27,999 bases of DNA, taken from positions 1-27,999 of IMG/VR virus record IMGVR_UViG_3300036829_000014, one strand, 5' to 3'. The position numbers and the translations under genes were made by a program. Below are positions 3,421 through 18,991 of this stretch, one piece after another (positions within the stretch are counted from its first letter, which is position 1; each line of letters opens with the position of its first letter). A model generated the notes under the pieces. It searched no databases, had not been told where the DNA came from, and saw only the letters and a list, made by a program, of their open reading frames with translations. The DNA comes from a virus.

Positions 3421-3693
3421 TTACGCTGCGGTCTCAACAACCTGCTTAGCAGCAGCTCGTGTGGCCTTGCGCTCGACGTACTTGTCTGCAACCGTGTCTA
3501 CGGCCTTGTTCACCAGCGGCTTCGTGAAGCTAGTGAAGTAGAGCGCCGCGGTGTAACACGCCAGTCGCACCGGAAGGTTCTCTTCCGGAACGAAATCTGT
3601 GTTCTCCTCGACAGTCTTCTCAATAGTATCACAAGCCAAACTGTAAACGGCGTAGTTGGCAACAGCCTTAACGACATTACGCTTGGACATCAT
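3421..3693 (-). CDS. Small conserved phage protein, possibly membrane-associated
   Basis: The product is 90 aa. The first of two tandem ATGs is used because AAGGAG lies eight bases upstream. It begins MMSKRNVVKAVANYAVYSLA, continues with an acidic stretch (EKTVEENTDFVPEENLP), then a semi-hydrophobic helix around RLACYTAALYFTSFTKPLV, and ends in an Ala/Lys-rich helix. It sits alone between its own promoter (3724-3756) and a strong terminator (3381-3413), so it can be expressed as a separate single-gene unit, unlike its operon neighbours. The function is unknown. The separate expression suggests it is needed at a different level or time from the surrounding genes. Confidence 0.8.
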   Translation of the reverse strand: MMSKRNVVKAVANYAVYSLACDTIEKTVEENTDFVPEENLPVRLACYTAALYFTSFTKPLVNKAVDTVADKYVERKATRAAAKQVVETAA

Positions 3694-3723: not shown

Positions 3724-3756
3724 GGTCTCATTATGGTCCATGTTTATTCTGCGAAT
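3724..3756 (-). promoter_or_regulatory. Phage promoter P1 (copy 1 of a 33-bp family)
   Basis: Read on the minus strand, this element has a -10 box CATAAT (3730-3735) followed by GAGACC. Upstream are ACATGG and the TTCGCAG block that falls in the -35 region. It aligns without gaps over 33 bases to the elements at 5736-5768, 5819-5851 and 6231-6263. The upstream part also forms an inverted repeat, TTTATTC-GCA-GAATAAA. The predicted start of transcription is near 3723, giving a leader of about 30 bases before the 90-aa gene. The -35 hexamer does not look like TTGACA. Confidence 0.75.
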
Positions 3757-3765
3757 AAAAAGCTG

Positions 3766-4335
3766 TTACTCGAGAATCTTCAAGCTCCCAGCACGAAGTT
3801 CGGCCTGCGCCATTTCGAAATCGCTTGTGGAGAGATTCATGAACTCTTCCCTAGTAATAGTACGCGCCTGAACCTGCTCCTCAGGCGGTCGAACACCACC
3901 CATAGGGGATTGAGTAACCCCTTCGTTGTTCTGAGCAAGAACTTTCTCGGTTTCATCAATCAGATCCTTCGGCATGATCCCGGTTATGAAAGCCGAGGCA
4001 GCATCTGCATCTGTGACTAGTTCCATGAAGAATGTGGAATATGCCTCAGATGATTCGAAATCTGAACGAAGCTGATCGTTCTTGATGAAGCGCTTGCCAT
4101 CCGTCGACTTGACTCCGTAAGAGCCAAGAATGAGCTTCTTCATCTCCTGCATGATGACCTTACCGTTGACCTTTCCTTCCGGATCGGTCTCGATCATTCG
4201 CTGCATGGTTTCGGAGAAGCCTCCTTCCATGCTCAGCTCGAGCTCGACCAGCTCTGCGCGAGTCATGTTGAAGTAGAAGACTTCCGTCTCCTCCTCCCCG
4301 TTAAAATTGGTGTAAGTGATTGTCTTCTTGAGCAT
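3766..4335 (-). CDS. Conserved phage protein resembling a tail assembly chaperone
   Basis: The product is 189 aa. The start at MLKKTITYTNFNGEEETEVF is set by a strong AGGAGGTAAC site directly upstream; the longer in-frame extension has no such site. The opening beta-strand pair, MTRAELVELELSMEGG, the YGVKSTDGKRFIKNDQLR block and EAYSTFFMELVTDADAASAF match a widespread family in phages of Gram-positive hosts. Several members are annotated as tail assembly chaperone-like because the fold prediction and the lengths resemble lambda gpG relatives. The C-terminal third is an acidic, low-complexity tail (RPPEEQVQARTITREEFMN). It lies far from the tail genes, after the lysis genes, so a chaperone role here is uncertain. 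It ends just before promoter P1. Confidence 0.8.
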   Translation of the reverse strand: MLKKTITYTNFNGEEETEVFYFNMTRAELVELELSMEGGFSETMQRMIETDPEGKVNGKVIMQEMKKLILGSYGVKSTDGKRFIKNDQLRSDFESSEAYSTFFMELVTDADAASAFITGIMPKDLIDETEKVLAQNNEGVTQSPMGGVRPPEEQVQARTITREEFMNLSTSDFEMAQAELRAGSLKILE

Positions 4336-4343
4336 GTTACCTC

Positions 4344-5159
4344 CTAGTAGAACTTGTTGTAGTTTGGCTGAGGATGAGCACCAAAGTCGACCGCAATGCA
4401 TGGACGACCATCAGAAGACATGGTCGTCGAGAAAGCAATCGTCAATTGGTTATCGAGATTCCAGCCAACCTCGTCTGAGACTCCGGTCGGAGGCAATCCA
4501 ATCTCGTCATATAGCGAGCTGAGGCTCGCGTAGCTGTGGTTAATGATGTTGAAGTTGATCGTGTTCTCAGCCTTCTTGATTTCTTCAACACTGCTCTGGA
4601 AATACCTACCAGAGTAAATATCGAAGCACAGCACCTCTCCGGTTCCGGCAAGGATCACTTCTCGCGTGTTTACAGGAACTTTGTCCACCTTGTCCTGAGC
4701 CAGAGCCTCTCGGACAGACAGTTCCTTGTTCTCGCCAAGCTTCTCAACTACCTTGGCCTTGTACTCCTGGAGTGCTTTCTCTGATACACTCGAAGCAATC
4801 GTCAAAGCAGCAATCTGATTCGATGCCACCCGATTACCTGTCAGAATTGCCGCTAGAGTTCCAGCACCAGTGATAAATGGAGGAACATAAAGCGGATACA
4901 CAAGCTTGATCTTTTCGCGAAAAGTCAAGTCTGGTAAACCAGTGAAATCGTTTCCGATTGTCCTTGGTGTCCTATCGTCATCTCGAACTGGAGAAAGGTT
5001 GAGTGATTCTTTGTGAATCAATCTCGCGGCCTTGTATCCTGCCTGATGCGACAAATATGACGTACCGACTACGCCAGCGGACCCTGCCCCGGTAAGGAGC
5101 AGGGTTGAGTGATTGCTGGTGAACTGCTTGGCCTTACCGATGAGTTCTGCGATGTGCAC
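4344..5159 (-). CDS. DUF6353-like membrane protein, paralogue 1
   Basis: The product is 271 aa. I chose the GTG of (M)HIAELIGKAKQF because AAAGGTGG is five bases upstream. A TTG 15 bases earlier is possible but overlaps that ribosome binding site. The first membrane segment is LLLTGAGSAGVVGTSYLS near residue 20-40. The second is YPLYVPPFITGAGTLAAILT about 85 residues further. Next are a helical stretch (ALQEYKAKVVEKLGENKE) and a soluble C-terminal domain with YASLSSLYDEIGLPPTGVSD and VGWN. Order and motifs match the gene at 1362-2291, so these are paralogues. DUF6353 has no known activity. The first 26 bases overlap the end of the 47-aa micro-protein gene upstream, suggesting coupled translation. 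Confidence 0.85.
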   Translation of the reverse strand: MHIAELIGKAKQFTSNHSTLLLTGAGSAGVVGTSYLSHQAGYKAARLIHKESLNLSPVRDDDRTPRTIGNDFTGLPDLTFREKIKLVYPLYVPPFITGAGTLAAILTGNRVASNQIAALTIASSVSEKALQEYKAKVVEKLGENKELSVREALAQDKVDKVPVNTREVILAGTGEVLCFDIYSGRYFQSSVEEIKKAENTINFNIINHSYASLSSLYDEIGLPPTGVSDEVGWNLDNQLTIAFSTTMSSDGRPCIAVDFGAHPQPNYNKFY

Positions 5160-5277
5160 GGTTCCACCTTTCAATTAGCGACATGACGAGGTCATACATA
5201 TAGTCTATGGTTAGCCACATTATGAACCAAAATAACAACGCGACAGAAAGCCACGTTGCCGTTTGCACAGAGATCAT
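5134..5277 (-). CDS. 47-aa single-span membrane micro-protein
   Basis: The ATG overlaps the TGA of the 43-aa gene upstream (ATGA), and the TAA lies 26 bases inside the following DUF6353 gene. The product starts MISVQTATWLSVALLFWFIM, continues WLTIDYMYDLVMSLIERWNR and ends AHRRTHR. This gives one hydrophobic span at about residues 8-24 and a basic, aromatic C-terminus, which predicts an N-out, C-in topology. No family is recognised. The tight overlaps at both ends and the clear membrane character are the evidence that it is real. Its short length means conventional length filters would miss it. Confidence 0.6.
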   Translation of the reverse strand: MISVQTATWLSVALLFWFIMWLTIDYMYDLVMSLIERWNRAHRRTHR

Positions 5278-5405
5278 CGCTTGCGCATCTCTCGGACGAA
5301 AATCCAGATCAACCAGAGGCCACCGGTGATGATGGTCATAATAATGTCAAATATGAATGACATGCATCCGTACGGCTTGCTTTGCACGATGTAAATCCTT
5401 TCCAT
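5274..5405 (-). CDS. 43-aa membrane micro-protein (GGLWLIWxFVREMR type)
   Basis: The ATG is preceded by AGGTGA at about eight bases, two bases after the stop of the 78-aa gene. The product runs MERIYIVQSKPYGCMSFIFD then IIMTIITGGLWLIWIFVREM and RKR. One membrane segment covers about residues 15-36 and ends in a basic tail. The SFIFDIIMTIITGGLWLIW pattern recalls small unannotated membrane proteins present in many actinophages and other phages, usually near lysis or accessory genes; this is recognition from memory. Its stop overlaps the start of the next micro-protein by ATGA. A lysis-accessory or membrane-adaptor role is possible but unproven. Confidence 0.75.
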   Translation of the reverse strand: MERIYIVQSKPYGCMSFIFDIIMTIITGGLWLIWIFVREMRKR

Positions 5406-5407
5406 AA

Positions 5408-5644
5408 TTATTCACCTATACCCATCTCTACAAGAATGGTCCGAGCAATATCACTCGGATCCGTCATGTCCCTCCAGGGCTCCTTATCACGAATGGCAAA
5501 CAGCGCGTCAATGGAAGCCATCGGCGTACCAACAACCACAGCCATAATTCCTGGCTGTGCATCTTCACCATCAATTTGAAGCGCCAGCGTTGACAGCGAC
5601 TCCTCAAGAGCTTTCATCTTTTGCTGCTCAACTTCGGTCTTCAT
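5408..5644 (-). CDS. Small acidic hypothetical protein
   Basis: The product is 78 aa, starting at MKTEVEQQKMKALEESLSTL six bases after AAGGAG. The N-terminal third is a charged helix. A short hydrophobic strand (GIMAVVVGTPMASIDALFAI) follows, then an acidic, Trp-containing end (EPWRDMTDPSDIARTILVEM). No known domain is visible, and it is probably cytoplasmic. It is the first gene after the promoter at 5736-5768, but a strong hairpin with a T-run lies between promoter and gene, so its expression may depend on read-through of that hairpin. It starts the operon that continues into the two micro-proteins and DUF6353 paralogue 1. Confidence 0.75.
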   Translation of the reverse strand: MKTEVEQQKMKALEESLSTLALQIDGEDAQPGIMAVVVGTPMASIDALFAIRDKEPWRDMTDPSDIARTILVEMGIGE

Positions 5645-5660
5645 ATTAACTCCTTAGATT

Positions 5661-5709
5661 AGAAAAATAAAAAGAGAGTACCAGACTTGAACTGGTTGGA
5701 TAGTCTCTC
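5661..5709 (-). terminator. Hairpin with T-run in the leader of the 78-aa gene (terminator or attenuator)
   Basis: Minus-strand order is GAGAG, eight bases, then ACCAG-TTCAAGT-CTGGT, one A, then CTCTC and TTTTTATTTTT. The outer GAGAG/CTCTC and inner ACCAG/CTGGT helices stack, with an internal bulge, before the T-run. It lies downstream of promoter P2 and upstream of the 78-aa gene, so it would end transcripts from P2 after about 73 nt unless bypassed. Confidence 0.7.
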
Positions 5710-5735
5710 CACGATTGGTTACGTGGCACTTTATC
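5661..5735 (-). ncRNA. Candidate short leader RNA from P2 with a tRNA T-arm-like hairpin
   Basis: If P2 starts transcription near 5735, the RNA before the T-run would be about 73 nt and contains no credible reading frame. It has a first hairpin (CCACG / CGTGG, eight-base loop, 5709-5726) and a second five-pair hairpin with the seven-base loop TTCAAGT, which is the consensus shape of a tRNA T-arm. A D-arm and a CCA end are absent, so it is not a tRNA. It may be a regulatory leader, an attenuator or an independent small RNA. The call rests on predicted structure only. Confidence 0.4.
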
Positions 5736-5768
5736 GCTCTCATTGTAGACCATGTTTTTTCTGCGATT
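5736..5768 (-). promoter_or_regulatory. Phage promoter P2 (copy 2 of a 33-bp family)
   Basis: On the minus strand the -10 box is TACAAT (5742-5747) followed by GAGAGC, with ACATGG upstream and ATCGCAG in the -35 region. It aligns without gaps to the elements at 3724, 5819 and 6231. The T-run of the preceding terminator (5770-5774) touches its upstream edge, so a terminator and a promoter are packed back to back. Confidence 0.75.
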
Positions 5769-5769
5769 G

Positions 5770-5797
5770 AAAAACTGAAAGCCCCACGAGCTTTCAG
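5770..5797 (-). terminator. Rho-independent terminator ending the P3 transcript
   Basis: A perfect eight-pair stem (CTGAAAGC / GCTTTCAG on the minus strand) closes a seven-base loop and is followed at once by TTTTT. It lies about 20 bases downstream of the predicted P3 start site. The arm can alternatively pair AAGCCC with GGGCTT (5801-5806 with 5779-5784), which would exclude part of the terminator stem. Confidence 0.8.
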
Positions 5798-5818
5798 CTT
5801 GGGCTTACTTCTTGGGTA
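5770..5818 (-). ncRNA. Candidate 49-nt terminated RNA from P3
   Basis: Promoter P3 is followed within about 50 bases by a strong intrinsic terminator. No start codon with a ribosome binding site lies in between, so the expected product is a non-coding RNA made almost entirely of the hairpin region. Two mutually exclusive foldings are possible (see the terminator at 5770-5797). It could be a small RNA, or a switch that controls read-through into P2 and the genes beyond. No known RNA family is recognised. Confidence 0.4.
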
Positions 5819-5851
5819 GGTCTCATTATAGGCGATGTAATATCTACGACC
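5819..5851 (-). promoter_or_regulatory. Phage promoter P3 (copy 3 of a 33-bp family)
   Basis: On the minus strand the -10 box is a perfect TATAAT (5825-5830) followed by GAGACC. Upstream are ACATCGCC next to the -10 and GTCGTAG in the -35 region. It aligns without gaps to the other three copies. The palindrome at 5863-5877 lies 12 bases upstream of it. Confidence 0.8.
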
Positions 5852-5862
5852 CTGGACCGAAA

Positions 5863-5877
5863 TTTCCCCCGGGGAAA
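5863..5877. promoter_or_regulatory. Palindrome TTTCCCC-C-GGGGAAA upstream of P3
   Basis: This is a perfect 15-bp inverted repeat with a single central base. It sits between the terminator of the preceding gene and promoter P3, in the position expected for an activator or repressor site. The core CCCCCGGGG recurs at the right end of the window (27980-27988), also between genes. No protein can be assigned from the sequence. Confidence 0.4.
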
Positions 5878-5882
5878 ATGGC

Positions 5883-5911
5883 AAAAAATGAGAGCCCATG
5901 TTTCAGGGCTC
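5883..5911 (-). terminator. Rho-independent terminator after the 93-aa gene
   Basis: A six-pair stem GAGCCC / GGGCTC with an eight-base loop is followed three bases later by TTTTTT on the minus strand. It begins 22 bases after the stop of the 93-aa membrane-protein gene. With P4 upstream, it makes that gene a self-contained transcription unit. Confidence 0.8.
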
Positions 5912-5933: not shown

Positions 5934-6215
5934 TTATCTAGGCTTCTGGATCATGCGCATCGCGCTGGATGTGATTACGTGGTGGTGTTCGTAACCGATG
6001 ACCATCAGAATGCCCAAAAGATTGGTTCCGGCCAGAACCAGCGTGTCTTTGCTCACAGGTGAAGATTCCTCTTCGGTCTTCATCTTGTGTAGCTTGACAG
6101 CTCGGTCTAGGACGACTCCATATTCTTCTGAGGCAATCTTGTGATCAGCCAGTTCGGCTAACACTTCCTCGCATCGCGTTTCCAGTCTCGTTGGCAATTT
6201 CTTTGCAGCGAACAT
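5934..6215 (-). CDS. Small single-span membrane protein, conserved in actinophages
   Basis: The product is 93 aa, with the start six bases after AAGGAG. Residues 1-45 are a charged, mostly helical cytoplasmic stretch (LPTRLETRCEEVLAELADHK). Residues about 58-75 form one membrane span (TLVLAGTNLLGILMVIGYE), followed by a short conserved tail HHHVITSSAMRMIQK. The NLLGILMVIGYE plus VITSxA ending recalls a small unknown family in actinophages, usually near structural or accessory genes. It has its own promoter (6231-6263) and terminator (5883-5911), directly after the holin gene. A role in lysis timing or at the host membrane is possible from position alone; nothing in the sequence proves it. Confidence 0.85.
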   Translation of the reverse strand: MFAAKKLPTRLETRCEEVLAELADHKIASEEYGVVLDRAVKLHKMKTEEESSPVSKDTLVLAGTNLLGILMVIGYEHHHVITSSAMRMIQKPR

Positions 6216-6230
6216 AACGCTCCTTTGTAG

Positions 6231-6263
6231 GGTCTCATTATAGGCCGTGTCTAGGCCGCGAAC
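6231..6263 (-). promoter_or_regulatory. Phage promoter P4 (copy 4 of a 33-bp family)
   Basis: On the minus strand the -10 box is a perfect TATAAT (6237-6242) followed by GAGACC. Upstream are ACACGGCC next to the -10 and GTTCGCG in the -35 region. It starts seven bases after the holin stop codon, and the predicted leader before the 93-aa gene is only about 15 bases. It aligns without gaps to the other three copies. Confidence 0.8.
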
Positions 6264-16733: not shown

Positions 16734-17528
16734 CTATACGTCTGTTGATGAAATGGTGTAAGTATCCGGATCGATGTACGTAGCATCAGCACCATCAATC
16801 ACGAACTCCGCACTACTTGCCATGGAAATATAAGTACCACTCAAATCGGTAGCGGTCCACGTTCCGTCCCCGTTATCCGTTATGACAAGATCATCATATG
16901 GTGCCAAGAAGGTAAACAACCCAGTTACTGTTGGAAAATATGGATCACTTGTCGAGGTGCCATAAAGAGCGGCCTCTATCGTATCGATGAGGCCTACCGG
17001 AGATCGAGTTGAATCAAACGAGTAATGAACCGTAGGTCTAATTCCGTCTATCTTTGGAGGAGTACCAGTCAGCGCCCATACAAACTCATTCAACGATGCC
17101 GAATTGTCAATCGTGGCAAACGTATACGTATCGGCAAGTGCACGAAGATTGTAAAGAAGATGGATTTTATACCCATGAACATCACCATCGACATCGTTAC
17201 CAATCATCGTCCTGTATGATAAGTTAAAACTTTGAGGTGGCTGCTCATAGAAAGACATTCCGGCCTTGAAGTCGATTCCCAGAACTTTTTCGAATTCTTC
17301 TGGATAAGTGTAGGCCTTGAGCTTTCCTACGAACTCTCCAGGATTTGCTCGCTCCAAGAACTTTACGCCGTCCATGTAATACGGCTTTACGTCTCCATCG
17401 GATCCTTGGTCTACAGAGGTAAGGCCGTTCCACGGAACGACGACGCCATCGTTGAGATACAGAACTCCTCGATCGACGCCCGTTTGATACTTGCGATCGC
17501 CCACCTTGTCCCACTCGAGAACTGTCAT
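16734..17528 (-). CDS. Tail tube protein, paralogue 2
   Basis: The product is 264 aa after a strong GAAAGGAGGTGGC site. It is clearly homologous to the gene at 18110-18991: both share VGDRKYQTGVDRGVLYL / VGDRTYETGVDRGVLYL, WNGLTSV / WNGLTTV, YPEEF, and LSYRTMIGNDVDG / LSYRTLLGNDVEG followed by GYKIHLLY / GYKLHLIY. These are the core strands of a siphovirus major tail tube fold. The last 60 residues differ from paralogue 1 and look like a small beta domain (DGTWTATDLSGTYISMASSA, ending DTYTISST). It is separated from paralogue 1 by a chaperone-like gene and followed by the fibre gene. It may form part of the tube, a tube-end ring, or a platform for the fibre. Confidence 0.88.
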   Translation of the reverse strand: MTVLEWDKVGDRKYQTGVDRGVLYLNDGVVVPWNGLTSVDQGSDGDVKPYYMDGVKFLERANPGEFVGKLKAYTYPEEFEKVLGIDFKAGMSFYEQPPQSFNLSYRTMIGNDVDGDVHGYKIHLLYNLRALADTYTFATIDNSASLNEFVWALTGTPPKIDGIRPTVHYSFDSTRSPVGLIDTIEAALYGTSTSDPYFPTVTGLFTFLAPYDDLVITDNGDGTWTATDLSGTYISMASSAEFVIDGADATYIDPDTYTISSTDV

Positions 17529-18109: not shown

Positions 18110-18991
18110 TTAGTAGTCGAAGCTCCAATCGGTATCACCCTGCAGAGAGTGACCTGGGGTCGGAACCGCGTCCACATCTGCTGTCTCTCCAACAGCAAGC
18201 GCTGGCTGCGCACCCGGCGCTGCGTCGTTGCCGTTGACTCGCCACTGAACACCGGCGACTGCCGGAAGCGTGACGACATGTGTTGTCGCATTGTACGTCG
18301 GCTGATTGGCGTAAACGCCCAGGTCAACCTCGACAACTGTGCCACTGAACAGCGCGATGACCTCATCCGGAAGCGGAAGTCGTGCATCACCAGCACCCGA
18401 TCCCCAAAGGAGATCTTGTAAGCTGGCAAGCGCAGTCGCATCCACCTTGGACGAGTCGACCACGATGAGCGAAGTCGGCTTGAGAGCGGCAACCGCGACC
18501 GGAGTCGTGGTGACGTCCCAGCTGAAGTCGATCGCCGCAGGCGAATCGTTGACTGTGGCGTAAGCCTTCTCTGCCGGTGCCGCCTGGCAGCCGTAAATCA
18601 GATGCAGCTTGTAACCATAGTCGTTGCCCTCGACATCGTTTCCGAGAAGAGTGCGGTAGCTCAGCCCAAAGGCCTTACGATGCTGCTGACCGACGATCAA
18701 GCCGGGAGAAGGAACTGCGGTGCCGTCACACTCCGCAAACTCCTCCGGGTACGTGAACGCCGCGATTGTTGCCCCGAACTCTTCAGCAGCGATGAGGTTC
18801 AGGTACTTGATGTTGTCGGCCCACTGCGGGGTCGCCGCAGCGCCGGTGGGCTTCTCCGTTACGGTCGTGAGACCGTTCCAGGCAACACCGGTATCGTAGT
18901 TGCCACTCCCATCCGGCAAATACAGAACGCCGCGATCGACACCCGTCTCGTACGTACGGTCGCCAACCAGATCCCATTGAAGGGCTGTCAT
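18110..18991 (-). CDS. Major tail tube protein, paralogue 1
   Basis: The product is 293 aa, starting MTALQWDLVGDRTYETGVDR. The order of blocks (GVLYLPDG, GVAWNGLTTVTE, AAFTYPEEFAECDGTAV, HRKAFGLSYRTLLGNDVEGN, YGYKLHLIYG) fits major tail proteins of siphoviruses. The tube core covers about residues 1-215. The last 75 residues form a separate Ig-like beta domain ending GHSLQGDTDWSFDY, closely similar to the C-terminus of the capsid protein at 19632-21710. The gene follows the tail terminator, the usual place for the principal tube protein, so I favour this copy as the main tube subunit. The paralogue at 16734-17528 lacks this C-terminal domain. Confidence 0.92.
   Translation of the reverse strand: MTALQWDLVGDRTYETGVDRGVLYLPDGSGNYDTGVAWNGLTTVTEKPTGAAATPQWADNIKYLNLIAAEEFGATIAAFTYPEEFAECDGTAVPSPGLIVGQQHRKAFGLSYRTLLGNDVEGNDYGYKLHLIYGCQAAPAEKAYATVNDSPAAIDFSWDVTTTPVAVAALKPTSLIVVDSSKVDATALASLQDLLWGSGAGDARLPLPDEVIALFSGTVVEVDLGVYANQPTYNATTHVVTLPAVAGVQWRVNGNDAAPGAQPALAVGETADVDAVPTPGHSLQGDTDWSFDY

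Follow-up and report, generated by a model that had tools for sequence, protein, structure and literature searches.

The window analysed here is a viral record of 27,999 bases, a partial contig whose structural genes are of the phage 1706/Deejayvirinae kind according to PHROG calls and all lie on the minus strand. Two pairs of paralogues occur on this strand, one of phrog_2152 (function not assigned in PHROG; 1362-2339 and 4344-5174) and one of phrog_2645 (major tail protein; 16734-17528 and 18110-18991). Previously, two minigenes, each consisting of a promoter, a hairpin and a terminator and encoding no protein, had been predicted from the sequence at 5661-5851. We inspected this block on both strands: the coordinates and the layout are correct, the elements of both units, P3 and P2, all lie on the minus strand (Table 1), and neither RNA contains a credible open reading frame (ORF). 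The overlapping ORFs 5654-5899 and 5646-5753 were rejected as genes because they start within the upstream terminator or the P2 promoter and have no convincing SD sequence. A near-perfect palindrome, TTTTCCCCGGGGGAAATT (minus strand), is situated at 5860-5880, just upstream of P3. The protein of the coding minigene 5934-6215, used as a query, matched no viral loci. On the other side of the block, the start codon of a 78-aa ORF lies about 20-30 nt beyond the P2 T-run. A 43-aa membrane protein with the conserved C-terminal ..GGLWLIWIFVREMRKR is encoded at 5274-5405 (minus strand).

Table 1. Features of the two-unit block and its surroundings, with members of related RNA families at other loci
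Feature	Position	Strand	Basis
Promoter of coding minigene 5934-6215 (reference coding unit)	6233..6261	-	26.7 bits, 29-nt matrix
P3 promoter, TCGTAGATATTACATCGCCTATAATGAGA	5821..5849	-	37.7 bits, 29-nt matrix
P3 transcript, about 55 nt, non-coding, coding-type start GAGACC	5770..5824	-	no ORF; unpaired 5' end
P3 terminator hairpin, 13 bp, into TTTTT (5774-5770)	5772..5800	-	fold
P2 promoter, TCGCAGAAAAAACATGGTCTACAATGAGA	5738..5766	-	34.9 bits, 29-nt matrix
P2 transcript, structured non-coding RNA, about 70-79 nt, end TTTTTATTTTT	5663..5741	-	fold; class membership
Hairpin CCACG-TAACCAAT-CGTGG, tip of single long arm	5709..5726	-	fold
Canonical tRNA T-arm ACCAG-TTCAAGT-CTGGT, perfect, 17 nt	5680..5696	-	fold; class enrichment
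Outer acceptor-like stem, 5' strand GAGAG, 3' strand CTCTC	5741-5737, 5674..5678	-	fold
P2-downstream ORF, 78 aa	5408..5644	-	without own promoter; heads promoterless gene run to 3754
Promoter of coding minigene 3421-3693	3726..3754	-	36.0 bits, 29-nt matrix
Family A members	L015 2173-2274; L057 3843-3949; L041 10285-10391; about 35 further loci
Gordonia tRNA mimic	L134 9351-9428 (phage Kenosha); about 33 further Gordonia records

In relatives of this phage, small genes are preceded by a common 29-nt motif with the consensus TCGCAGGAATTACATGGCCTATAATGAGA. Scanned with the position matrix of this motif, the fetched loci contain 746 sites, and their reversed sequences 0-4. Exactly four sites are present in the window, all on the minus strand: 6261-6233, 5849-5821 (P3), 5766-5738 (P2) and 3754-3726. 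With 37.7 and 34.9 bits, P3 and P2 score far above the reversed-sequence null, and the two predicted promoters are thus genuine members of a phage promoter family; the P2 motif begins 4 nt past the TTTTT run of P3. Among 84,980 species of bacteria and archaea scanned for the pattern, only 6 contigs carry the motif, and a slightly longer form of the pattern occurs in 111 viral stretches. A sigma70 scan, which requires a -35 box 16-18 nt ahead of the -10 box, listed neither P2 nor P3; therefore, these are not ordinary sigma70 promoters. The conserved boxes are located 13 and 5 nt upstream of TATAAT and not at -35. The same motif in Gordonia phages Vardy and Conley has been described as a sigma70 promoter of small genes (PMC9671010, PMC10868162). 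TATAAT is indeed a perfect -10 box, and terminators are expected between units; together with the two genome announcements, this would fit a scenario in which the host reads ordinary promoters and tight terminators insulate adjacent genes, the shape of the RNAs being incidental. This scenario is quite improbable, as the -35 box is missing, the spacing and the phage specificity of the motif speak against it, and covariation is found within the RNAs (see below).

The most likely reader of the promoter is a two-barrel (YonO/QDE-1-like) RNA polymerase encoded by the phage itself. Motif-bearing phages encode a protein of about 900 aa that falls into phrog_4291, 'RNA-dependent RNA polymerase', and the DFDGD motif is present in all five polymerases checked. 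The gene was found in 24 of the 25 motif-bearing records of 44 kb or more; the partial contig of the window contains none. Furthermore, phage records matching phrog_4291 show the same counts per actinobacterial host genus as the neighbour protein phrog_2152, and the polymerase is therefore a core gene of this phage group. A comparison of the polymerase with PDB sequences returned no polymerase match. The enzyme of Lactococcus phage P162 is about 38% identical to the Gordonia enzyme, and the P162 promoters retain ACA-N5-TATAATG, with a different upstream box.

Automatic classification of 1,034 distinct promoter units, in which some assignments will be wrong, gave 770 that lead into an SD-led ORF, 188 that are non-coding up to a T-run and 76 that are unclear. 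The two kinds differ at their start: coding units mostly begin with GAGACC, and non-coding units with GAGAAG, GAGAGG or GAGAGA. The hexamer that follows TATAAT in a non-coding unit is paired with bases among the 22 nt ahead of the T-run in 70-82% of minimum-energy folds, and its exact complement is present in 68/184 units (permuted maximum, 32). This exact-complement test supersedes a simpler count of closing stems, which for stems of at least 7 bp exceeded its swapped-end null only about threefold. Given this pairing, transcription probably includes the bases immediately behind TATAAT, which a start of the sigma type, 5-9 nt further downstream, would leave out. Beyond the T-run, 77 of the 188 non-coding units have a new promoter, in most cases no more than 20 nt away, and 95 have a promoterless SD-led ORF, in most cases 16-42 nt away. 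Thus, the back-to-back packing that had drawn attention to the block is a recurrent arrangement; the P3 unit is of the former kind and the P2 unit of the latter. In at least 15 of these 95 cases, a membrane-protein gene of the 43-aa type directly follows the non-coding unit. Some units (L023 10959, L024 11822, L102 2903, L067 5416) repeat a single hairpin module two or three times, with variation in the stems, and resemble sponges or arrays of binding sites. About 1 kb of another locus (L003 3600-4640) has no obvious genes, contains several long inverted repeats and promoter-like sites, and may hold further structured RNAs.

The two units of the block do not form the matched pair that the original prediction had envisioned; only the P2 RNA resembles the structured-RNA class. 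The P3 hairpin and its TTTTT are as predicted, with a 13-bp stem spanning 5800-5772. However, the P3 leader, GAGACCTACCC, is of the coding type, the ORF is absent, and the 5' end is not paired with the 3' end as it is in the class. An unpaired 5' end was seen in only 2 of 79 short non-coding units, namely P3 and a tRNA-like unit at locus L166. The P3 unit is probably a coding minigene emptied of its gene, which would yield a short by-product RNA from a coding-type minigene whose ORF was lost.

The P2 unit, by contrast, has the properties of the non-coding class: the promoter, no ORF, a T-run within 180 nt and pairing between the 5' and 3' ends. Its RNA would start at about 5741 and run to the T-run TTTTTATTTTT at 5673-5663. 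The layout agrees with the prediction; the single hairpin does not, since the fold is multi-branched, with an outer stem, one long arm and a T-arm. The outer stem, GAGAG/CTCTC, comprises 5 bp, runs end-to-end and lies just ahead of the T-run. By folding energy, the RNA stands out only moderately (z about -2.1 to -2.3). A canonical T-arm adjoins an acceptor strand fused to the T-run, which makes the unit tRNA-like. Canonical T-arms occur in 11/188 non-coding units, in 0-1 units of shuffled sets and in 1/770 coding units, and the full combination of a T-arm with an adjacent acceptor fused to the T-run is found in four units including P2 and in none of ten shuffled sets. The L166 unit (minus strand, 4284-4353) looks, by eye, like a second unit with the acceptor-arm-T-arm layout.

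The P2 RNA is not itself a tRNA, a candidate that we rejected since it has no D-arm, no CCA and no normal anticodon arm. Neither ARAGORN nor the Rfam tRNA model calls it a tRNA, and neither of our covariance models, R1 (family A) and R2 (Gordonia RNA), matches the window; the tRNA-like placement of P2 is therefore one of T-arm and acceptor geometry alone. An exact search of IMG/VR for the P2 3' end gave no match, and no close homologue of the RNA was found. In Rfam, the window and loci L002-L011 had no matches that reached the gathering score of a family, and the block had chance-level scores only. In Rfam and in the open-licence papers searched, where absence is not proof, we found no description of these RNAs, in line with the earlier statement that no described family with this layout was known. 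The P2 RNA is apparently one of a large, widespread and previously undescribed class of small folded phage RNAs.

The cores of phage attachment sites (attP) often match the 3' half of a tRNA gene, and the P2 T-arm region could in principle be such a core copied from a host tRNA gene. The PHROG calls of the window include no integrase. In addition, the 24-nt segment is matched (up to 3 mismatches) in only 1/395 genomes of the class Actinobacteria, and that match breaks the stem. We rejected this origin, which has hardly any probability left.

Related units establish the class as real. Family A is a pseudoknotted, strongly covarying RNA of about 100 nt behind the same promoter. Among its 18 seed sequences, both-sided changes occur in 14 of 18 pairs, against 9.3 in shuffles, and the covarying pairs include a pseudoknot helix formed by the GACACNAA segment with the TTTTN'G loop. 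A model lacking both promoter and pseudoknot gave 42 matches in 1.02 Mb, and all 39 that were checked sit 0-21 nt downstream of a promoter. Family A has no Rfam match in the loci searched and no match in 198 bacterial genomes, the latter being a weak negative because the search had no positive control. The second family, the Gordonia RNA, combines a D-arm, a T-arm and an outer stem with a 4-bp mini-hairpin that replaces the anticodon arm; paired changes occur in the T-stem, the mini-hairpin and the outer stem. It is present in about 34 records, none with an annotated feature under the match. Its model R2 also matches units of L166, L131, phage P162 and the Rhodococcus phages ReqiPoco6 and ReqiPepy6, where they are annotated as tRNA-OTHER. 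The P162 unit (L220 4268-4346), unannotated and behind a variant promoter, is an anticodon-less tRNA-like unit with the same tRNA mimic architecture as the Gordonia RNA; ARAGORN calls no tRNA there. The covariation evidence is that of these two related families.

These relatives also bear on whether P2 is a decayed remnant of a phage tRNA with no present function. Near-complete tRNA-like units behind the same promoter do exist in Poco6, Pepy6 and L166, and P2 keeps only the T-arm and the acceptor, as a remnant might. Nevertheless, the Gordonia RNA, with no anticodon arm, has compensatory changes and is kept in about 34 records, and a similar form exists in a Lactococcus phage; loss of the anticodon arm is thus a maintained state. 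Since the stems and T-run of P2 are also intact, decay is an improbable account, if less so than the host-read scenario.

The main rival is a cis-acting leader, because half of the units, including P2's, directly precede a promoterless gene. Here, the P2 RNA would be a structured 5' region, and its closing stem would terminate conditionally and thereby control how much transcription continues into 5408-5644 and the genes beyond. In the terms of the original prediction, which offered small RNAs, decoys or switches, this would be the switch. The genes that follow non-coding units head long promoterless runs in 67/95 cases, compared with 144/620 for coding units, and in several relatives such a unit precedes the same small membrane-protein gene. 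On the other hand, 77 units run into a new promoter instead, and the structures found ahead of one gene family are mutually unrelated. One RNA family can be found in either setting, as in Kenosha and OhMyWard and among members of family A. Therefore, we place a trans-acting tRNA mimic or decoy before a cis leader, which we consider less likely but a serious contender.

Our preferred explanation, to which we give a probability of roughly 55%, is that P2 produces a stand-alone tRNA-mimic RNA acting in trans from a promoter read by the phage polymerase, and that P3 is an emptied minigene. Computation shows the promoter family, the RNA class, the T-arm and the covariation in two related families; which enzyme reads the promoter, where transcription starts, that the units are expressed, how P2 acts in trans and how P3 arose are our inferences. 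The two-barrel polymerase would start at the GAGA right after TATAAT. Since the 5' end of the transcript pairs with its 3' end just before the U-tract, the outer stem would both close the RNA and terminate transcription. The product would be a small structured RNA, one of many RNA minigenes that 1706-like phages of Actinobacteria and Lactococcus carry beside single-gene protein minigenes under the same promoter. P2 retains the acceptor-plus-T-arm end of a tRNA, whereas CCA is missing and the fold shows neither a normal D-arm nor a normal anticodon arm; the RNA would therefore most likely be a mimic, bound in place of tRNA by a factor of the host or its defence that recognises this end. The absence of a close homologue, the lack of a match to either covariance model, the moderate folding energy, the promoterless gene directly downstream and the absence of a polymerase gene from the partial contig count against this explanation. 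More tentatively, phages with a two-barrel polymerase might maintain, as single-gene minigenes beside small protein genes, a rapidly evolving set of RNA effectors that includes tRNA mimics, pseudoknots and sponges of repeated hairpins, the RNAs acting in trans against host factors or defence and the promoter being the recognition sequence of this polymerase type; we regard this broader proposal as possible but less likely than not.

Among known systems, the 50- and 43-bp TATAAT motifs of Vardy and Conley are this promoter, situated in the corresponding gene region of phages that belong to the same group (PMC9671010, PMC10868162). Those papers report five copies and 'no tRNAs', with no RNAs and no link to a phage polymerase, whereas Vardy has an RNA unit in our set (L210). 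YonO of phage SPbeta, the characterised enzyme of this type, is likewise a phage-encoded two-barrel RNA polymerase, with an unannotated non-coding RNA at its start site and a promoter reported as undetermined (PMC5467207). The YonO host element is a Bacillus prophage, and the likeness to it here is by PHROG and motif evidence only. Our motif is a concrete candidate promoter for this type of polymerase.

Type III toxin-antitoxin systems use RNA antitoxins, of which phage mimics are also known. The units at L023, L024 and L102 resemble these antitoxins in having two or three copies of a hairpin module inside an outer stem, a hint that some members of the class may serve as sponges or mimic antitoxins; the P2 RNA, in contrast, has no repeats. 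The tRNA-OTHER of ReqiPoco6 (GU580942) and ReqiPepy6 (GU580941) has the same promoter as P2, a T-arm and an acceptor fused to the T-run with no CCA, but keeps the D-arm and anticodon arm that P2 lacks. In the tRNA-like structure of TYMV, too, viral RNA imitates the elbow or the acceptor side of a tRNA while other parts have diverged; mimics of this type form the 3' termini of the genomes of RNA viruses and are open to aminoacylation (PMC4810234), whereas the units here are separate small transcripts of DNA phages and have no CCA. As an unannotated class of structured RNA in sequenced, culturable phages (Gordonia, Arthrobacter, Rhodococcus, Lactococcus), they are open to tests of expression and function. 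If phages of two bacterial phyla make tRNA mimics that lack an anticodon, DNA phages would be putting tRNA mimicry to a new use.
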